From contig SUUI01000002.1 in the NCBI GenBank assembly GCA_015062605.1, forward strand, positions 124,001-188,000: a DNA stretch of 64,000 nucleotides, in the 5' to 3' direction. Shown here piece after piece: positions 18,642-45,020 of the stretch (position 1 is its first letter; each line of letters opens with the position of its first letter). The notes under the pieces were generated by a model, which worked only from the letters and a program-made list of their open reading frames with translations, was not told the DNA's origin and ran no database searches. The translations under genes were made by a program, and so were the position numbers. The DNA is from Eggerthellaceae bacterium. GTDB taxonomy: Bacteria; Actinomycetota; Coriobacteriia; Coriobacteriales; Eggerthellaceae.

Positions 18642-19013
18642 TTACTTAGGACGCTTAGCTCCATAGCGGCTACGTGCCTGACGACGCTTGTCAACGGAAG
18701 CGCAGTCGAGCGTGCCGCGGATAACCTTATAGCGAACACCGGGGAGGTCGCGAACACGACCGCCGCGGATGAGCACCATGCTGTGCTCCTGAAGGTTGTG
18801 GCCTTCACCGGGAATGTAAGCGGTAACTTCGATACCGTTTACGAGGCGAACACGGCAAACCTTACGAAGTGCCGAATTCGGCTTCTTGGGCGTGGTGGTA
18901 TACACACGCGTGCAAACACCGCGTTTCTGCGGGTTGCTCTTCAGCGCCGGCGTCTTCTTCTTATCTGCCGTGCGCAAGCGTCCCTTACGGACGAGCTGAT
19001 TAATGGTAGGCAA
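18642..19013 (-). CDS. rpsL: 30S ribosomal protein S12 (TTG start)
   Basis: The usual S12 N-terminus ([11 protein letters not shown]) appears without a preceding ATG. The codon before it is TTG at 19013, with a strong AAAGGAGGG six to eight bases upstream, so TTG is the likely start and gives 123 residues, the family length. An ATG at 19082 would add 23 atypical residues. The decoding loop [17 protein letters not shown] carries the lysine altered in streptomycin resistance (wild type here). The second loop reads [10 protein letters not shown]. Confidence 0.97.
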
Positions 19014-19151
19014 ATCGCCCTCCTTTACCCTAGTCTCGGTTTTCCCTTGTGACCCACGGGAAAACCCTTGCAAACTGAACATCCTTTCGGTTAACCTCGC
19101 TCATGTGATTTGAGCGCAGCAAACCATACGCCTCGAAAGACGCGAAAGTGC

Positions 19152-19807: not shown

Positions 19808-19862
19808 GGTTCTCTCCTTTTCATATGCCTTGGTTTCCGACCAAAGCGAGACAAGCTTAGCT

Positions 19863-34663: not shown

Positions 34664-36163
34664 CTACTCACCTGCGCTTTCTGCGTAACGTGGCGCAATG
34701 GGCGCTTTGCCGTAGATGAGCTCGAGTGCAGCAGCGGCACGGAACATGTTCTCGTCTTTGAATTGCGGTGCTTGGAGCTGCGCGCCGATGGGCAGGTTCG
34801 TATCTTTGCCCAAACCAACCGGCATCGACATGCCACCATTGCCGGCTATGTTGAGCGAAATGGTGAACATATCGGATAAATACATGCTCGTCGGATCGGA
34901 GATCTCTCCGAATTTGAACGCGGTACGCGGGCTTGACGGCATGAGGATCACATCGCATTTCTCATAGGCACGCGTGTAATCCTCGGTGATAAGCGTACGC
35001 ACCTGCTGCGCCGGGTAGTAGTACTTGTCGTACACGCCTGCCGAGAGCAGATAGCTGCCCAACATGATACGGCGACGCGCCTCGGGACCGAAACCCTCGG
35101 CACGCGAGGCCTCGTACTGGCCGCCTAAGTCCGCATGGCCGGGATCGCGATAGCCGTAGCGCACGGAATCAAAACGGGAGAGATTGGAGAATGCCTCGCA
35201 TGGACCGAGCACGTAATACGCGCTCATCGCGGCTTGCGCATGGGGAAGATCGACTTCGACAAGCGAAGCGCCTGCCGATTTCAGCGCATTGGCGACTTCA
35301 GCCATCTTCTCACGTACCTCGTTCGAGAGGCCTTCGGCTTCCATGAATGCAGGAACGACGCCGATGCGCATGCCAAAAGCGCCTTCGGCAAGATTCGCCG
35401 TGAAGTCCGTGGAAACAGGTTGGCTCGTGCAATCAAGTGGATCATGGCCAGCGATGGCGTTCATAACATAAGCCGCATCCTCGACGCTGCGAGCAAACGG
35501 ACCCACCTGGTCGAGCGAAGAGCCGAATGCCACGATGCCGTAGCGTGAGACGACGCCATAGGTCGGCTTCACGCCGACAACGCCGCAGAAGCTTGCGGGT
35601 TGGCGGATCGAACCACCCGTATCGCTGCCAAGCGTAGCAGGCAGTAGGCCTGCCGCAACGGCTGCAGCGCTACCACCAGAGCTTCCACCCGGAACACGTT
35701 CGAGGTCCCATGGGTTGCGCGTGGGACCGAAAGCCGATGTCTCGGTGGAAGACCCGAATGCGAATTCGTCCATGTTGAGCTTGCCGAAAGGCACTGCGCC
35801 CGCATCGAGCGTGCGTTGCACACATGTGGCAGTGTACATGCTTTCGTAATTCTCAAGCATGCGCGAACCGCAGGTTGTGCGCGTACCGAGCAGGTTCATA
35901 TTGTCCTTATAGGCCATCGGGATGCCCGCAAGCGGACCGATGTCGGTCAGAGAGTCGCCTTTAGCAAGGCGCGCATCCACTTTTGCTGCCGCTTCGCGGG
36001 CGACCTCAGGTGTGAATTCCAAAAACGCGTTCACGCCACCCTGCTCGTAGTCAATCTCTTCGATGCGCTTAGCGGTCGCTTCTGCAAGTTCAAGCGCAGA
36101 AAACTCCCCCGCCGCGAGGCCTGCACGGATCTCGCAGATTCCCATAGTTGCAAGTTCTGCCAT
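34664..36163 (-). CDS. gatA: Asp/Glu-tRNA(Asn/Gln) amidotransferase subunit A
   Basis: The start is ATG at 36163, overlapping the gatC stop as TAATG. The 499-residue amidase has the Ser-cisSer-Lys triad context: GIPMAYKDN (Lys), GSSGGSAAAVAAG and LGSDTGGSIRQPASFCG. GatA hydrolyses glutamine and delivers ammonia to GatB. Presence of GatCAB implies that Gln-tRNA or Asn-tRNA is made by transamidation in this organism. Confidence 0.97.
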   Translation of the reverse strand: MAELATMGICEIRAGLAAGEFSALELAEATAKRIEEIDYEQGGVNAFLEFTPEVAREAAAKVDARLAKGDSLTDIGPLAGIPMAYKDNMNLLGTRTTCGSRMLENYESMYTATCVQRTLDAGAVPFGKLNMDEFAFGSSTETSAFGPTRNPWDLERVPGGSSGGSAAAVAAGLLPATLGSDTGGSIRQPASFCGVVGVKPTYGVVSRYGIVAFGSSLDQVGPFARSVEDAAYVMNAIAGHDPLDCTSQPVSTDFTANLAEGAFGMRIGVVPAFMEAEGLSNEVREKMAEVANALKSAGASLVEVDLPHAQAAMSAYYVLGPCEAFSNLSRFDSVRYGYRDPGHADLGGQYEASRAEGFGPEARRRIMLGSYLLSAGVYDKYYYPAQQVRTLITEDYTRAYEKCDVILMPSSPRTAFKFGEISDPTSMYLSDMFTISLNIAGNGGMSMPVGLGKDTNLPIGAQLQAPQFKDENMFRAAAALELIYGKAPIAPRYAESAGE

Positions 36164-36474
36164 TACCGATCGCCTCCTTCGCCTAGAATCGACGGAATGA
36201 GGAAGCAACCGTCCTGCTGAGCAGGCGCATTGGAAAGCGCATAATCCTGCGTGAAGCTTTCGCGCTCGATGTCCTCGCGCATTACGTTGGAAAGGCTTCC
36301 GATGGGATGGAATGTGGGAACCACGCCTTCGAGATCGTATTCGGTGATGGGGGCCAAGCTGTCGATGATGCTATTCAGATCGATCGTCATCTGGCTTATC
36401 TCATCGTCGTTCAAGCGGATGCGCGTGTATTCCGCGATATCGCGCACATCACGCTCGGTAACGTGTTGAGCCAT
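36163..36474 (-). CDS. gatC: Asp/Glu-tRNA(Asn/Gln) amidotransferase subunit C
   Basis: The 103-residue protein has TERDVRDIAEYTRIRLNDDE, MTIDLNSIIDSLAPITEYD and GVVPTFHP, typical of GatC, which tethers GatA and GatB. It is first in the gatC-gatA-gatB operon and is preceded by GAAAGG. Confidence 0.95.
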   Translation of the reverse strand: MAQHVTERDVRDIAEYTRIRLNDDEISQMTIDLNSIIDSLAPITEYDLEGVVPTFHPIGSLSNVMREDIERESFTQDYALSNAPAQQDGCFLIPSILGEGGDR

Positions 36475-41184: not shown

Positions 41185-42573
41185 ATGAATAAGGGAAATC
41201 CTGCAGCATTACTGCCCATCCTTGTGTTTCTGGTCCTCTATCTTGGACTGGGCATCGTATTGGAATACGTTCTGCACATCGAAATGGGTTTCTATAACAT
41301 TCCCATCGTCGTCATCTTCCTTATCGCGCTTGCAGTCGCGTGCGTGCAGAACAGGAAAATGTCGCTTGATGACAAGATAATCGCCATGGGTGAAGGCGTT
41401 GGAACCAAAACCATCATTTACATGATCTTGATCTTCATGGCTGCGGGCATCTTCGTCGGCGTCGTCGGAAGGGGCTCGGCTGAAAGCTGCGCGTATTGGC
41501 TTTTATCCATTGTTCCCGCTGAGTACGCACTCGGCGTCATGTTCGTCGTCGCATGCTTCGTGTCTATTTCAATGGGAACATCCGTCGGCACCATCACGCT
41601 ATTAACCCCCATCGGCTTCGCCGTAAGCCAAGCAACGGGCTTCAGCCTGCCTCTGTGCGTGGGCACCATTATGGGCGGCGCCATGTTCGGTGACAACTTA
41701 AGCTTCATCTCGGACACCACGATTGCCGCTTGCATCGGACAGGACTGCCAGATGTCCGACAAATTCAAGGAGAATTTCAAGATTGCCTTGCCGGCAGCAC
41801 TTGTCACGCTGGTCATCGTTATGGTCTTGAGCTTTTCCTCCGGCATCTCCGGCACCATCGATGAGCCATACAGCCTCATACAGATCATTCCGTATCTGCT
41901 CGTCTTCATAGGCGGTATCGCAGGAATCAACGTGTTCGTCGTACTGATCATCGGCATCGTATCGGGAGCCATCATCATGCTCGCCACGGGAGCAACCGCG
42001 CCGATCGATCTGCTCGGCAATATGGGCAATGGAGCGGCAGGCATGTTCGAAACCACGATGGTCGCCATCCTCGTCAGCTGCATCGGCGCGCTTGTACGCG
42101 CTTATGGCGGCTTCGATGCGCTCATGTACGCGCTGCGCATGCTGTTCAAGGGTCGTAAGGCCGGGCAACTCGGCATGGGACTGCTCGTCGGCTGTATGGA
42201 CATCGCCACAGCAAACAACACGGTCGCTATCGTCATCGCAAATCCGATTGCAACGGAGATGGCGCATCATTACGGCATTTCAAAACGCAAAACGGCATCC
42301 ATCCTTGATACGTTCAGCTGCGTCTTCCAGGGCATCTTACCGTATGGTGCCCAGATGCTCGTCGCGATAAGTGCTGTCGTAACCCTCGGCGGAACCGTGA
42401 GCGCTTTTCAAATCCTTCCTTGCCTTATCTATCCATTCGCGTTGTGCATAAGCTGTTTGCTCTTCATCTTCATCATCCCCGATAAAAAAGAACAGGAACG
42501 CGCCGCATTAGAAGCGGAGGAGCGTGCGAAGGATGAATCTATCACGCAGCCGATCGAAACTATCTCCGAATAA
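41185..42573 (+). CDS. Na+/H+ antiporter, NhaC family
   Basis: The start is ATG at 41185 after AAGGAG. The 462-residue protein has about 11-12 membrane segments and the NhaC-family core GGAMFGDNLSFISDTTIAA, together with GMGLLVGCMDIATANNTVA. It exchanges Na+ for H+, or in some members amino acids. It is transcribed alone. Its stop codon abuts a minus-strand terminator and the cobalamin riboswitch region. Confidence 0.87.
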   Translation: MNKGNPAALLPILVFLVLYLGLGIVLEYVLHIEMGFYNIPIVVIFLIALAVACVQNRKMSLDDKIIAMGEGVGTKTIIYMILIFMAAGIFVGVVGRGSAESCAYWLLSIVPAEYALGVMFVVACFVSISMGTSVGTITLLTPIGFAVSQATGFSLPLCVGTIMGGAMFGDNLSFISDTTIAACIGQDCQMSDKFKENFKIALPAALVTLVIVMVLSFSSGISGTIDEPYSLIQIIPYLLVFIGGIAGINVFVVLIIGIVSGAIIMLATGATAPIDLLGNMGNGAAGMFETTMVAILVSCIGALVRAYGGFDALMYALRMLFKGRKAGQLGMGLLVGCMDIATANNTVAIVIANPIATEMAHHYGISKRKTASILDTFSCVFQGILPYGAQMLVAISAVVTLGGTVSAFQILPCLIYPFALCISCLLFIFIIPDKKEQERAALEAEERAKDESITQPIETISE

Positions 42574-42577
42574 AAGA

Positions 42578-42612
42578 AGCGCCGCCCTGCGCTAAGGAGT
42601 ACGCAGGACGGC
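42578..42612 (-). terminator. Terminator downstream of the orphan cobalamin riboswitch
   Basis: On the minus strand GCCGTCCTGCG (42602-42612) pairs with CGCAGGGCGGC (42581-42591) with one G-T pair, and GCTTCTTTTATT follows. The T-run overlaps the nhaC stop codon. The plus strand has no T-run, so this hairpin serves the minus strand. Confidence 0.75.
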
Positions 42613-42749
42613 TCGAATGTACAGAAGAAGGACCAACGAGCTTAAGCCGCGCGAAGGAGGGCGCTTGGACTTCCGCTCGCCACGTAAAGCCTGAAGCTGG
42701 AAGCTTCGGACTGGGTTTGCAGTACATCGCTACAAAGAACCAGTACGTT

Positions 42750-42841
42750 TTCCGACGGGCGATCTGACTCGCGGTTGAGGGGCAACCGAATCACAGTGGC
42801 GGTACCGTGCGGGATTTGCACCCGCTTCTCCCAGTTCGGAA
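42750..42841 (-). ncRNA. Cobalamin riboswitch without an obvious downstream gene
   Basis: On the minus strand the B12-box elements appear in order: GGTGCAAATCC, then ACCGCCACTGTGA, then GTCAGATCGCCCGTC. The closing stem is TTCCGA (42836-42841) with TCGGAA (42750-42755). These are the conserved core of the cobalamin aptamer (RF00174-like). A promoter-like TATAGT (42866-42871) with TTTCTT 17 bases upstream precedes it. The only downstream sequence on this strand before the terminator is noncoding and is convergent with nhaC. Confidence 0.85.
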
Positions 42842-43023
42842 TCGTCTTTCTTCCTCTAACGAAATACTATACGGAAAAATGCGCACATAAGAAAGCGGGT
42901 ATCTTTAACGGGCATGGATTATCTTGCGCACTTTTTAGGATTTCTGCGCAAAAAACACCAAGTCAGATACGAAATCTATTCATTTTCCCGTTATACGCCC
43001 GATATCTGGTGAAACGTGATTCC

Positions 43024-43989
43024 TTACAGTTCGTTTACGAATGCTTCACGCTGCATATCGATGAGATGCTGATGCTCTTCGCGCGTACCAGATATAAACT
43101 CCCACACAAGGTATTCTGGGTCGATGCGTGAAACCAGTTTCCCGATGCCTGGCGTGCACCACGGTTGATGACCGTCGACTTTGAACGCATGCCCGAAGGA
43201 TTGCCAATATCGATCGGTATACGATTCCGGAAGCACGGGCGGATTGGCTTGGGTTTGCTTGCAATACTCCCCCGTCAGCGATTGATGGAAGTGCACGCCG
43301 CGGATATACGGAATGATGTCCTCGTTTCGATCGAGCACCTCGTTGACGTAGTCGAGCGCCTCCGCTTGCGTTGCAAGATCGAAGTTCGTATGCATCAGGT
43401 GGCCCGTATCGAGCATGAAGCCCTTGTTGGGATACTTCACGCCATCGAGCAAGCGCTTTGCGATCTCGGGACGCGTAAACGTAAGCCCCGATTGCCACTG
43501 ATTCTCCATCAATAGCGCAATGCTGCCGTCCTCGTCTGCGAATACCTCGTTCAAGATCTCTGCTGCGGCATCTACGATTTCCTCGTCTGTGTGCTTGTAG
43601 TTAAACGTGTAGTTCTCGAAAAGGCCGCTTTCGCTGACATGAAACACCACGTACTCGGCCCCCATCTTGTGTGCGAATTCCATGTCGTGCTTGAAACGAT
43701 CGACGATGATGTGCGGATCGCTGCCGCGCATCTGCGCATACGCTTCCTCGAGGCTGCCGTACTCCTCAATCATCCCCTTTTCATCGCCACGCCAGAAATC
43801 GTACCAGGTGATGTAATACCCCAGATGCACGCCAACAATCAAATCAGCCGGGATGATACCGCGTTCGTCTGAACCGTACTCCATCACTTCAGCGCCATCG
43901 AAATCCTTCGAGAACTCGCGGAAATCCGCCTCATCGGTGTAACGATCGGTATCCTCGAAGCAGGTTGTCGTATTGAATAGGGTCTTCAT
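43024..43989 (-). CDS. TIM-barrel protein of the AP endonuclease 2 superfamily, candidate CbiR-type cobamide remodelling enzyme
   Basis: The start is ATG at 43989 (MKTLFNTTTCFEDTDRY). The 321-residue protein has the xylose isomerase-like TIM-barrel pattern: VVFHVSES, LLMENQW, GFMLDTGHLMHTN and IRGVHFHQSL, with acidic and histidine residues suited to metal binding. CbiR of Akkermansia, which cleaves the cobamide nucleotide loop, belongs to the same superfamily. Position as last gene in a cobTUS operon favours that role, but the family is broad and the sequence alone does not prove it. Confidence 0.6.
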   Translation of the reverse strand: MKTLFNTTTCFEDTDRYTDEADFREFSKDFDGAEVMEYGSDERGIIPADLIVGVHLGYYITWYDFWRGDEKGMIEEYGSLEEAYAQMRGSDPHIIVDRFKHDMEFAHKMGAEYVVFHVSESGLFENYTFNYKHTDEEIVDAAAEILNEVFADEDGSIALLMENQWQSGLTFTRPEIAKRLLDGVKYPNKGFMLDTGHLMHTNFDLATQAEALDYVNEVLDRNEDIIPYIRGVHFHQSLTGEYCKQTQANPPVLPESYTDRYWQSFGHAFKVDGHQPWCTPGIGKLVSRIDPEYLVWEFISGTREEHQHLIDMQREAFVNEL

Positions 43990-44021: not shown

Positions 44022-45020
44022 CTATTGTTTCGATGCCAAGTGCATGAGCGAATCGCTCATGCCGCCTTCGATGTCCACATCGCATACCGTCCAGCTCACC
44101 ATATCGCAGCGGGCCTTGACGGCAACGCAATTCTGCACGTGCCATTCGAAATAGCTCTTCTCCGAATCCACAAGAGCGTCCATCACGCACATGATGGTTC
44201 CGCCGTGACCCACGATGATGCATTCGGGAAGGCCCATCTCGCACGCCTGCGTAACCGCGGACTTGAAAGCTCTAACAACCCGATCCATGAAGATTGCACG
44301 GCTCTCCCCATTCGGGCACACATCCTCAGCACCGGAATTGACCCACGCAATGTAGGCATCATCGGTGATCATCTCACACGCCGTGCGTCCTTCGAAGTCG
44401 CCGAAATCCATCTCCTGCAGACCATCCACCACGATTTGGCGTGCCCTTGGATACAGGATGGATGCCGTCTGGCGTGCACGCAAAAGCGGGCTTACGAACA
44501 CCACGGGGGTCTCGCATTTCGCAAAGACATCGCGCACAGAGGCTTCGCGGGCACACTCCTCGCCTTCCTCGCAAAGCGGTTCATCGGTGCTGCCGTTGTA
44601 ACGCTTCTCGAGATTCCCCTGAGTCTTCCCATGCCTTACAAGCGTCACGCGCATGATGCGCTTGAGCGTTTGGGGAATACCCCAGACCATGCGGATGACT
44701 TCATCGGCGTGCAGCGCCAATTCATTGGTCAACCTGCCCGCGGTTTCACGGAAAAGGCGATCGGTGTATTCGAGGGGAATGACGCCACTGCCCACCTCGG
44801 TCGTGATGACAACGTCGCGGTTCAGAAGAAGCGGCATAAGCTCATCGAGAGCTGCCTGCTTATCGGGATTATTCGCAAGGAATGCACGAACGGCTTCTTG
44901 CACATCGTAAATGACCGGGCTATCGGAATGCACGTCCGCAGACATTTGCTCGACCGTATAACCGAGCTTTTCCGTATACGTCCGCTTTCCGGAAGCAACG
45001 GGGCCAGTGATGAGTATCAC
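44022..45020 (-). CDS. CobU-like domain fused to CobC-type alpha-ribazole phosphatase
   Basis: The 332-residue protein has two parts. Residues 1-120 resemble CobU: P-loop GPVASGKRT (6-14) and the C-terminal half TTEVGSGVIPLEYTDRLF with AGRLTNELALHADEV. The central section with the guanylylated His is missing. Residues 122-320 are a histidine phosphatase: VTLVRHGKTQGN (RHG 129-131) and VGHGGTIM. CobC removes phosphate from alpha-ribazole-5'-phosphate in cobamide assembly. The gene overlaps cobS by four bases and lies upstream of the TIM-barrel gene. Confidence 0.82.
   Translation of the reverse strand: MILITGPVASGKRTYTEKLGYTVEQMSADVHSDSPVIYDVQEAVRAFLANNPDKQAALDELMPLLLNRDVVITTEVGSGVIPLEYTDRLFRETAGRLTNELALHADEVIRMVWGIPQTLKRIMRVTLVRHGKTQGNLEKRYNGSTDEPLCEEGEECAREASVRDVFAKCETPVVFVSPLLRARQTASILYPRARQIVVDGLQEMDFGDFEGRTACEMITDDAYIAWVNSGAEDVCPNGESRAIFMDRVVRAFKSAVTQACEMGLPECIIVGHGGTIMCVMDALVDSEKSYFEWHVQNCVAVKARCDMVSWTVCDVDIEGGMSDSLMHLASKQ

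Follow-up and report, generated by a model that had tools for sequence, protein, structure and literature searches.

Downstream of a cobamide operon in the window (the whole stretch of DNA that was analysed, 64,000 nucleotides, from an Eggerthellaceae gut bacterium that is uncultured), we found an AdoCbl riboswitch that ends in a strong terminator and precedes no gene. We tentatively propose that it forms a stand-alone AdoCbl-sensing small RNA (sRNA) of about 285 nt (~42859 to 42574, minus strand) that came from a surface-protein leader and probably blocks ribosome-binding sites in trans. An earlier note on this DNA had suggested an orphan B12 riboswitch that makes a noncoding RNA, and the features legible in the sequence support this: an aptamer, a dedicated terminator, the absence of a gene, conservation, compensatory changes that keep the structure in a sister genome, and a position as the exception among the riboswitches of the family. 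The genome that contains the window (G000) was compared with two sisters, G001 and G002, which are MAGs of the same genus, one of them from goat jejunum.

A riboswitch without a gene between a cobamide operon and nhaC

The match to RF01482 spans the aptamer end to end (model positions 1-149) and scores 51.1 bits against a gathering threshold of 50, indicating that the cobalamin riboswitch with a conserved core named in the earlier note is a genuine AdoCbl aptamer. The orphan is assigned to the AdoCbl riboswitch family by its aptamer alone, and AdoCbl is the predicted ligand. Riboswitches are commonly taken to act on the next gene, and control of a downstream gene in cis is usual for RF01482, though not required; here no minus-strand gene lies between the aptamer and the terminator or after the terminator, as had been claimed, and the convergent gene nhaC faces the RNA from the other strand, with marR-GPx genes on the minus strand beyond it. 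The elements of the locus are as follows.

42866-42871, minus strand: -10 element TATAGT, common to the three genomes and at the -10 position of the other leaders of its class (see below)
42848-42860, minus strand: 5' leader GUUAGAGGAAGAA, predicted 5' strand of the long-range closing helix P0
42857-42711, minus strand: AdoCbl riboswitch aptamer (RF01482), 51.1 bits, E 1.9e-6 for the 64-kb window
42693-42707, minus strand: tail hairpin 1 of the predicted fold, 5 bp, loop UUCCA (UUUUU in G001)
42635-42681, minus strand: tail hairpin 2 of the predicted fold, loop CCUCCUUC (42660-42653), complementary to Shine-Dalgarno sequences
42619-42630, minus strand: CUUCUUCUGUAC, predicted 3' strand of P0 and counterpart of the pyrimidine element that precedes the ribosome-binding site in gene-linked leaders
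42569-42612, minus strand: intrinsic terminator with a 12-pair stem (42612-42581), loop ACUCCUUA (42600-42593) and U-tract (42579-42569)
41185-42573, plus strand: nhaC, Na+/H+ antiporter gene (PF03553, E 1.9e-16), convergent, its stop codon beneath the U-tract

Upstream on the same strand lies a cobT-cobU-cobS-CobC-like phosphatase-TIM-barrel gene series that ends at 43024, which agrees with the earlier placement of the riboswitch downstream of a cobamide operon. One open frame (44022-45020, minus strand) contains the C-terminal part of a CobU domain and, after it, a histidine-phosphatase (CobC-like) domain. An inverted repeat, TTGCGCA...TGCGCAA, occurs at 42924-42951 between the TIM-barrel gene and the riboswitch promoter; it has no T-run, is largely conserved in the three genomes, and may be a regulator site or the 3' end of the operon. 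Elsewhere in the window, an L31-Coriobacteria ribosomal protein leader (RF03128, 42.9 bits) was found at 19814-19847 on the minus strand.

The promoter-like sequence that the earlier note had placed upstream of the aptamer was borne out in part, by a putative -10 element. TATAGT stands at the class -10 position, where a match of at least 4/6 is found in 19 of 27 leaders versus 12% of background windows, and it predicts a transcription start at ~42859 from which the RNA would be transcribed as a unit. The remainder of a promoter was not recovered: the -35 is poor (3/6), and a generic promoter scan gave no promoter upstream of the orphan aptamer. At the 5' end of the predicted RNA, the predicted folds of both G000 and G001 give a pairing probability close to one for GGAAG of the leader with the CUUCUUCU element.

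At the other end, the terminator stem is followed by GCTTCTTTTATT, with a T-run that overlaps the stop codon of nhaC (TAA 42571-42573), just as the earlier note had described. This was the only strong terminator 3' of the aptamer in the terminator scan, and if it works, the RNA overlaps nhaC by a few bases only. The tail fold is stabler than that of shuffled sequences (z -2.9). In the terminator stem, a U.G pair of G000 is a C-G pair in G001, a change in which the pair survives only if the RNA is the minus strand. We rejected a plus-strand RNA or a terminator of nhaC, since the T-run is on the minus strand only and the U.G pair of G000, if read from the plus strand, would turn into an A.C mismatch. 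A hidden small protein was likewise rejected: of the open frames after the aptamer, one (~55 codons) starts inside P13 and the other, a GTG frame of 13 codons, has no ribosome-binding site, and the substitutions in them track stem pairing, not codons.

The RNA is conserved within the genus

The orphan RNA is retained in both G001 and G002. Between G000 and G001 the aptamer is identical at 147/147 positions, compared with 85% average identity for the coding sequence of the shared block (94.6% in the best 147-nt window of the flanking coding block) and 70% for the intergenic sequence on the upstream side of the promoter. In these two genomes, gene-linked aptamers match at 128/137 (93.4%) and 165/219 (75.3%) positions. 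By sequence identity, the orphan is the best-conserved B12 sensor among those compared in the genus, which suggests that it probably acts as an RNA in its own right.

The 137-nt tail differs from that of G001 by 13 changes, and every pair of the shared fold survives them; two pairs are altered on both sides and two others on a single side. When these 13 changes are placed at random, an equally good result arises in ~0.1% of trials. The stem of hairpin 1 is kept, with the differences confined to its loop, and hairpin 2 contains two pairs changed on both sides and one changed on one side, with none broken. The compensatory changes are supportive of a maintained structure and not conclusive, because only two distinct tail sequences are available, both sisters are assembled from metagenomes, the tested structure was derived from those same sequences, and a pair-count shuffle control on the two rows was not significant (122/500).

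The whole RNA is identical between G000 and G002 (293/293). We dropped this identity as proof of constraint, as it is confounded by a low-diversity tract (41949-42881) that includes half of nhaC and has 4 differences between the two genomes, while its neighbours differ by 5-10%. The tract ends sharply at the riboswitch promoter and may represent a recombination tract or selection. The nhaC gene is retained and directly convergent in G000 and G002; in G001, an assembly 89% complete that keeps the RNA, no nhaC ortholog was seen. Only two bases of the G001 contig remain beyond the matched terminator, and therefore a gene could follow there.

Other AdoCbl aptamers of the family precede genes

For every aptamer found among 138 genomes of the family and a sample of 299 genomes of the order, we read the sequence that follows. 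In this survey, which is incomplete because weak matches escape the models when large sets are scanned, about 45 other AdoCbl aptamers precede genes, and the orphan is the exception. A long open frame begins within ~300 bases of nearly all of them and of the orphan not at all; in L011, and in L010 with its partial match, the start of the gene is more distant or less clear. The G000 genome has four RF01482 aptamers including the orphan, and the other three stand before a lipoprotein gene with cbiD, before a cbiK-like gene, and before the gene of a 2,356-aa protein. This last, secreted-looking protein (L071:2375-9445, minus strand; G000:C13) carries a CbiK cobalt-chelatase domain and several ricin-type lectin domains. 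A weak fifth cobalamin-riboswitch match (G000:C1:5888-6007; RF00174, 20.9 bits) lies ~900 bases before a large surface-protein match, and a similar pair is present in G002 (C45).

The full tail is restricted to this genus and present in three of its three genomes. Outside the genus we found no copy: three family matches were weak and near chance score, two of them mainly over the terminator, and the only one inspected (L079) was rejected as a copy, being an unremarkable terminator-like hairpin that follows a regulator gene. The exact aptamer core was absent from viral contigs, and a search of GTDB contigs for further members of the genus returned only the same two MAGs.

The orphan RNA appears to derive from a surface-protein leader

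Sequence resemblance suggests that the orphan RNA descends from the class of leaders that precede CbiK-type surface-protein genes. The post-aptamer GGCTTTACGTGGCGA of the orphan, and GGTCCTTCTTCTG further on, have similar counterparts in the CbiK/lectin leader, GGCTTTTACGTAGCGAATACGGG and GGCCCTTCTTCTG, and the orphan shares with the AdoCbl leaders of CbiK/lectin surface proteins in Eggerthellaceae (e.g., L003) the promoter position, the aptamer, the 5' leader and a downstream pyrimidine element. Those leaders go on to an antiterminator/terminator pair, a ribosome-binding site that the pyrimidine element would mask, and a gene, whereas in the orphan the hairpin differs, the terminator comes later and the gene is missing. 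The orphan also lacks the class motif GCGAATACGGGCTGCG, the predicted antiterminator sequence, and has a different conserved hairpin and another terminator instead.

Across the class, the stretch just 5' of the aptamer tends to complement the pyrimidine element, with a leader's own pairs being longer than swapped pairs (permutation p 0.007). This swap test was used in place of a test of leader-tail duplex energy, which did not discriminate real leaders from shuffles at most loci. In leaders L003, L020-L022, L026-L033, L041 and L044, the pre-aptamer stretch is often complementary to the pyrimidine element after the terminator, and this pairing may represent a long-range helix not previously described for these B12 riboswitches.

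Two tail loops complement Shine-Dalgarno sequences

The motif CUCCUU, the complement of AAGGAG, occurs in two of the three tail loops, those of hairpin 2 and the terminator, and two such sites in the tail are unexpected in dinucleotide shuffles (p 0.008). Both loops are unpaired in the predicted fold of G000; in G001 the terminator loop is also unpaired, and full-length folding leaves the hairpin-2 loop only partly open. Among the 58 genes of the window, matches of at least 7 nt were found for 8/58 with the hairpin-2 probe and 5/58 with the terminator-loop probe, including the Shine-Dalgarno sequence of nhaC (7 nt). Matches of 10 nt lie 5' of the genes at 34664-36208 and 18642-19082. The three genes behind the other G000 riboswitches had no strong match to the loop probes. 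CUCCUU pairs with many Shine-Dalgarno sites, and for this reason no specific target is singled out.

Under the proposed mechanism, a leader of the CbiK-type surface-protein class would have kept its promoter, aptamer and post-aptamer pyrimidine element when the gene was lost, and the strong terminator would close the gene-less RNA. The CUCCUU loops of hairpin 2 and the terminator would then pair with Shine-Dalgarno sequences of candidate targets and block translation in trans, while AdoCbl binding, in whichever direction the response to B12 might run, would set the fold or the amount of active RNA. In its fullest form, a former mRNA leader would have become a trans-acting sRNA with the AdoCbl aptamer as its own sensor and two anti-Shine-Dalgarno loops that repress several mRNAs, with no gene in cis, joining a riboswitch and 6C/B11-like logic in one molecule; we regard this complete version as possible but doubtful.

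The orphan RNA compared with known RNAs

We know of few noncoding RNAs headed by a riboswitch, the B12 cases being in Listeria and Enterococcus. As in the orphan, an AdoCbl aptamer heads a noncoding RNA in Rli55 and EutX (Listeria, Enterococcus), which carry ANTAR-binding twin hairpins that sequester EutV. The twin hairpins of Rli55 and EutX have hexaloops, whereas the three tail hairpins of the orphan have loops of 5, 8 and 8 nt. We rejected an ANTAR sponge on this loop form, and sequestration of the kind known from Listeria and Enterococcus, whose B12-controlled small RNAs the earlier note had cited as precedents, finds no support here. A search with PF03861 (ANTAR) gave no match in the genome, but none in control genomes either.

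The action proposed for the orphan, that of a terminated riboswitch RNA working in trans, has a parallel in the Listeria SAM riboswitches SreA and SreB (PMC8079631); SreA senses SAM, still controls its downstream operon and pairs with the prfA 5' UTR, whereas the orphan has an AdoCbl aptamer and no gene. The mycobacterial 6C/B11 sRNA has two C-rich loops that complement ribosome-binding sites, either of which can repress (PMC10470900). The orphan is predicted from its sequence to have two such complementary hairpin loops; they contain CUCCUU and follow an AdoCbl aptamer, while 6C/B11 has loops that are runs of C and no aptamer. No 6C/B11 match was found in 42560-42960 up to E 10, and a known Rfam sRNA was rejected, with only sub-threshold chance matches in that interval.

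Alternative explanations for the orphan RNA

The riboswitch might be a relic that still folds, its B12-regulated gene having disappeared when nhaC became the downstream neighbor. The likeness of the tail to the expression platform of CbiK-type surface-protein leaders would fit such a history, as would the low-diversity tract that G000 and G002 have in common here; moreover, a gene may persist in G001 past its contig end, and of the G001 copy of the CbiK surface gene just the C-terminal part was found, its leader not being seen. Nevertheless, a relic looks unlikely because the aptamer is fully identical and the tail changes break no pair, a judgement that rests on what lies beyond the G001 contig. 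The orphan aptamer is also more conserved than the gene-linked B12 aptamers compared, the tail hairpin appears to be maintained by compensatory changes, the terminator change suits a minus-strand RNA only, there are no remnants of a gene, and GCGAATACGGGCTGCG has been replaced. An attenuator, which we consider quite unlikely, would stop near 42574 with AdoCbl and read through without it, giving a transcript antisense to nhaC that might extend into the same-strand marR-GPx genes as an excludon. Its layout would be that of Listeria AspocR, whose B12 riboswitch yields a terminated RNA of 230 nt when B12 is present and a 1,400-nt RNA antisense to pocR when it is absent (PMC8079631). AspocR/Rli39 of Listeria monocytogenes resembles the orphan in having a B12 riboswitch without a coding gene, an adjoining gene on the opposite strand and a short terminated RNA (PMC8079631); it is a long antisense under attenuation control with a target, pocR, connected to the use of B12, whereas the orphan ends at the stop codon of an antiporter gene and has no apparent antiterminator. 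The direct convergence of nhaC in G000 and G002 and the single strong terminator after the aptamer agree with attenuation. However, the 5' arm of the terminator had no alternative upstream partner in the nascent folds of two sequences and paired only locally, and the terminator sits ~100 nt from the aptamer with a separate conserved hairpin between them. NhaC has, to our knowledge, no link to B12, G001 keeps the RNA and shows no nhaC ortholog, and nhaC orthologs elsewhere in the family do not lie beside an AdoCbl aptamer found in this survey. The antisense RNA acting on nhaC that the earlier note had offered is thus weak, as the terminated RNA reaches the stop codon only, and it is possible only by terminator read-through.

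A 3'-UTR riboswitch would end the cobT-cobU-cobS-cobC-TIM mRNA and let AdoCbl tune termination or stability of the operon. The riboswitch lies on the same strand directly 3' of the operon, the scan found no terminator between 43024 and the riboswitch, and the Listeria LysRS acts as a terminator for its upstream gene (PMC8079631). Against this, the -10 element at the class position suggests an independent start, and the inverted repeat at 42924-42951 intervenes. We know of no B12 riboswitch that tunes the termination or stability of an upstream operon in this way, and we judge this explanation to be very improbable. If the stand-alone sRNA that we tentatively favor is real, a gene-less B12 riboswitch in Actinomycetota would show how a cis-acting leader becomes a metabolite-sensing regulatory RNA.
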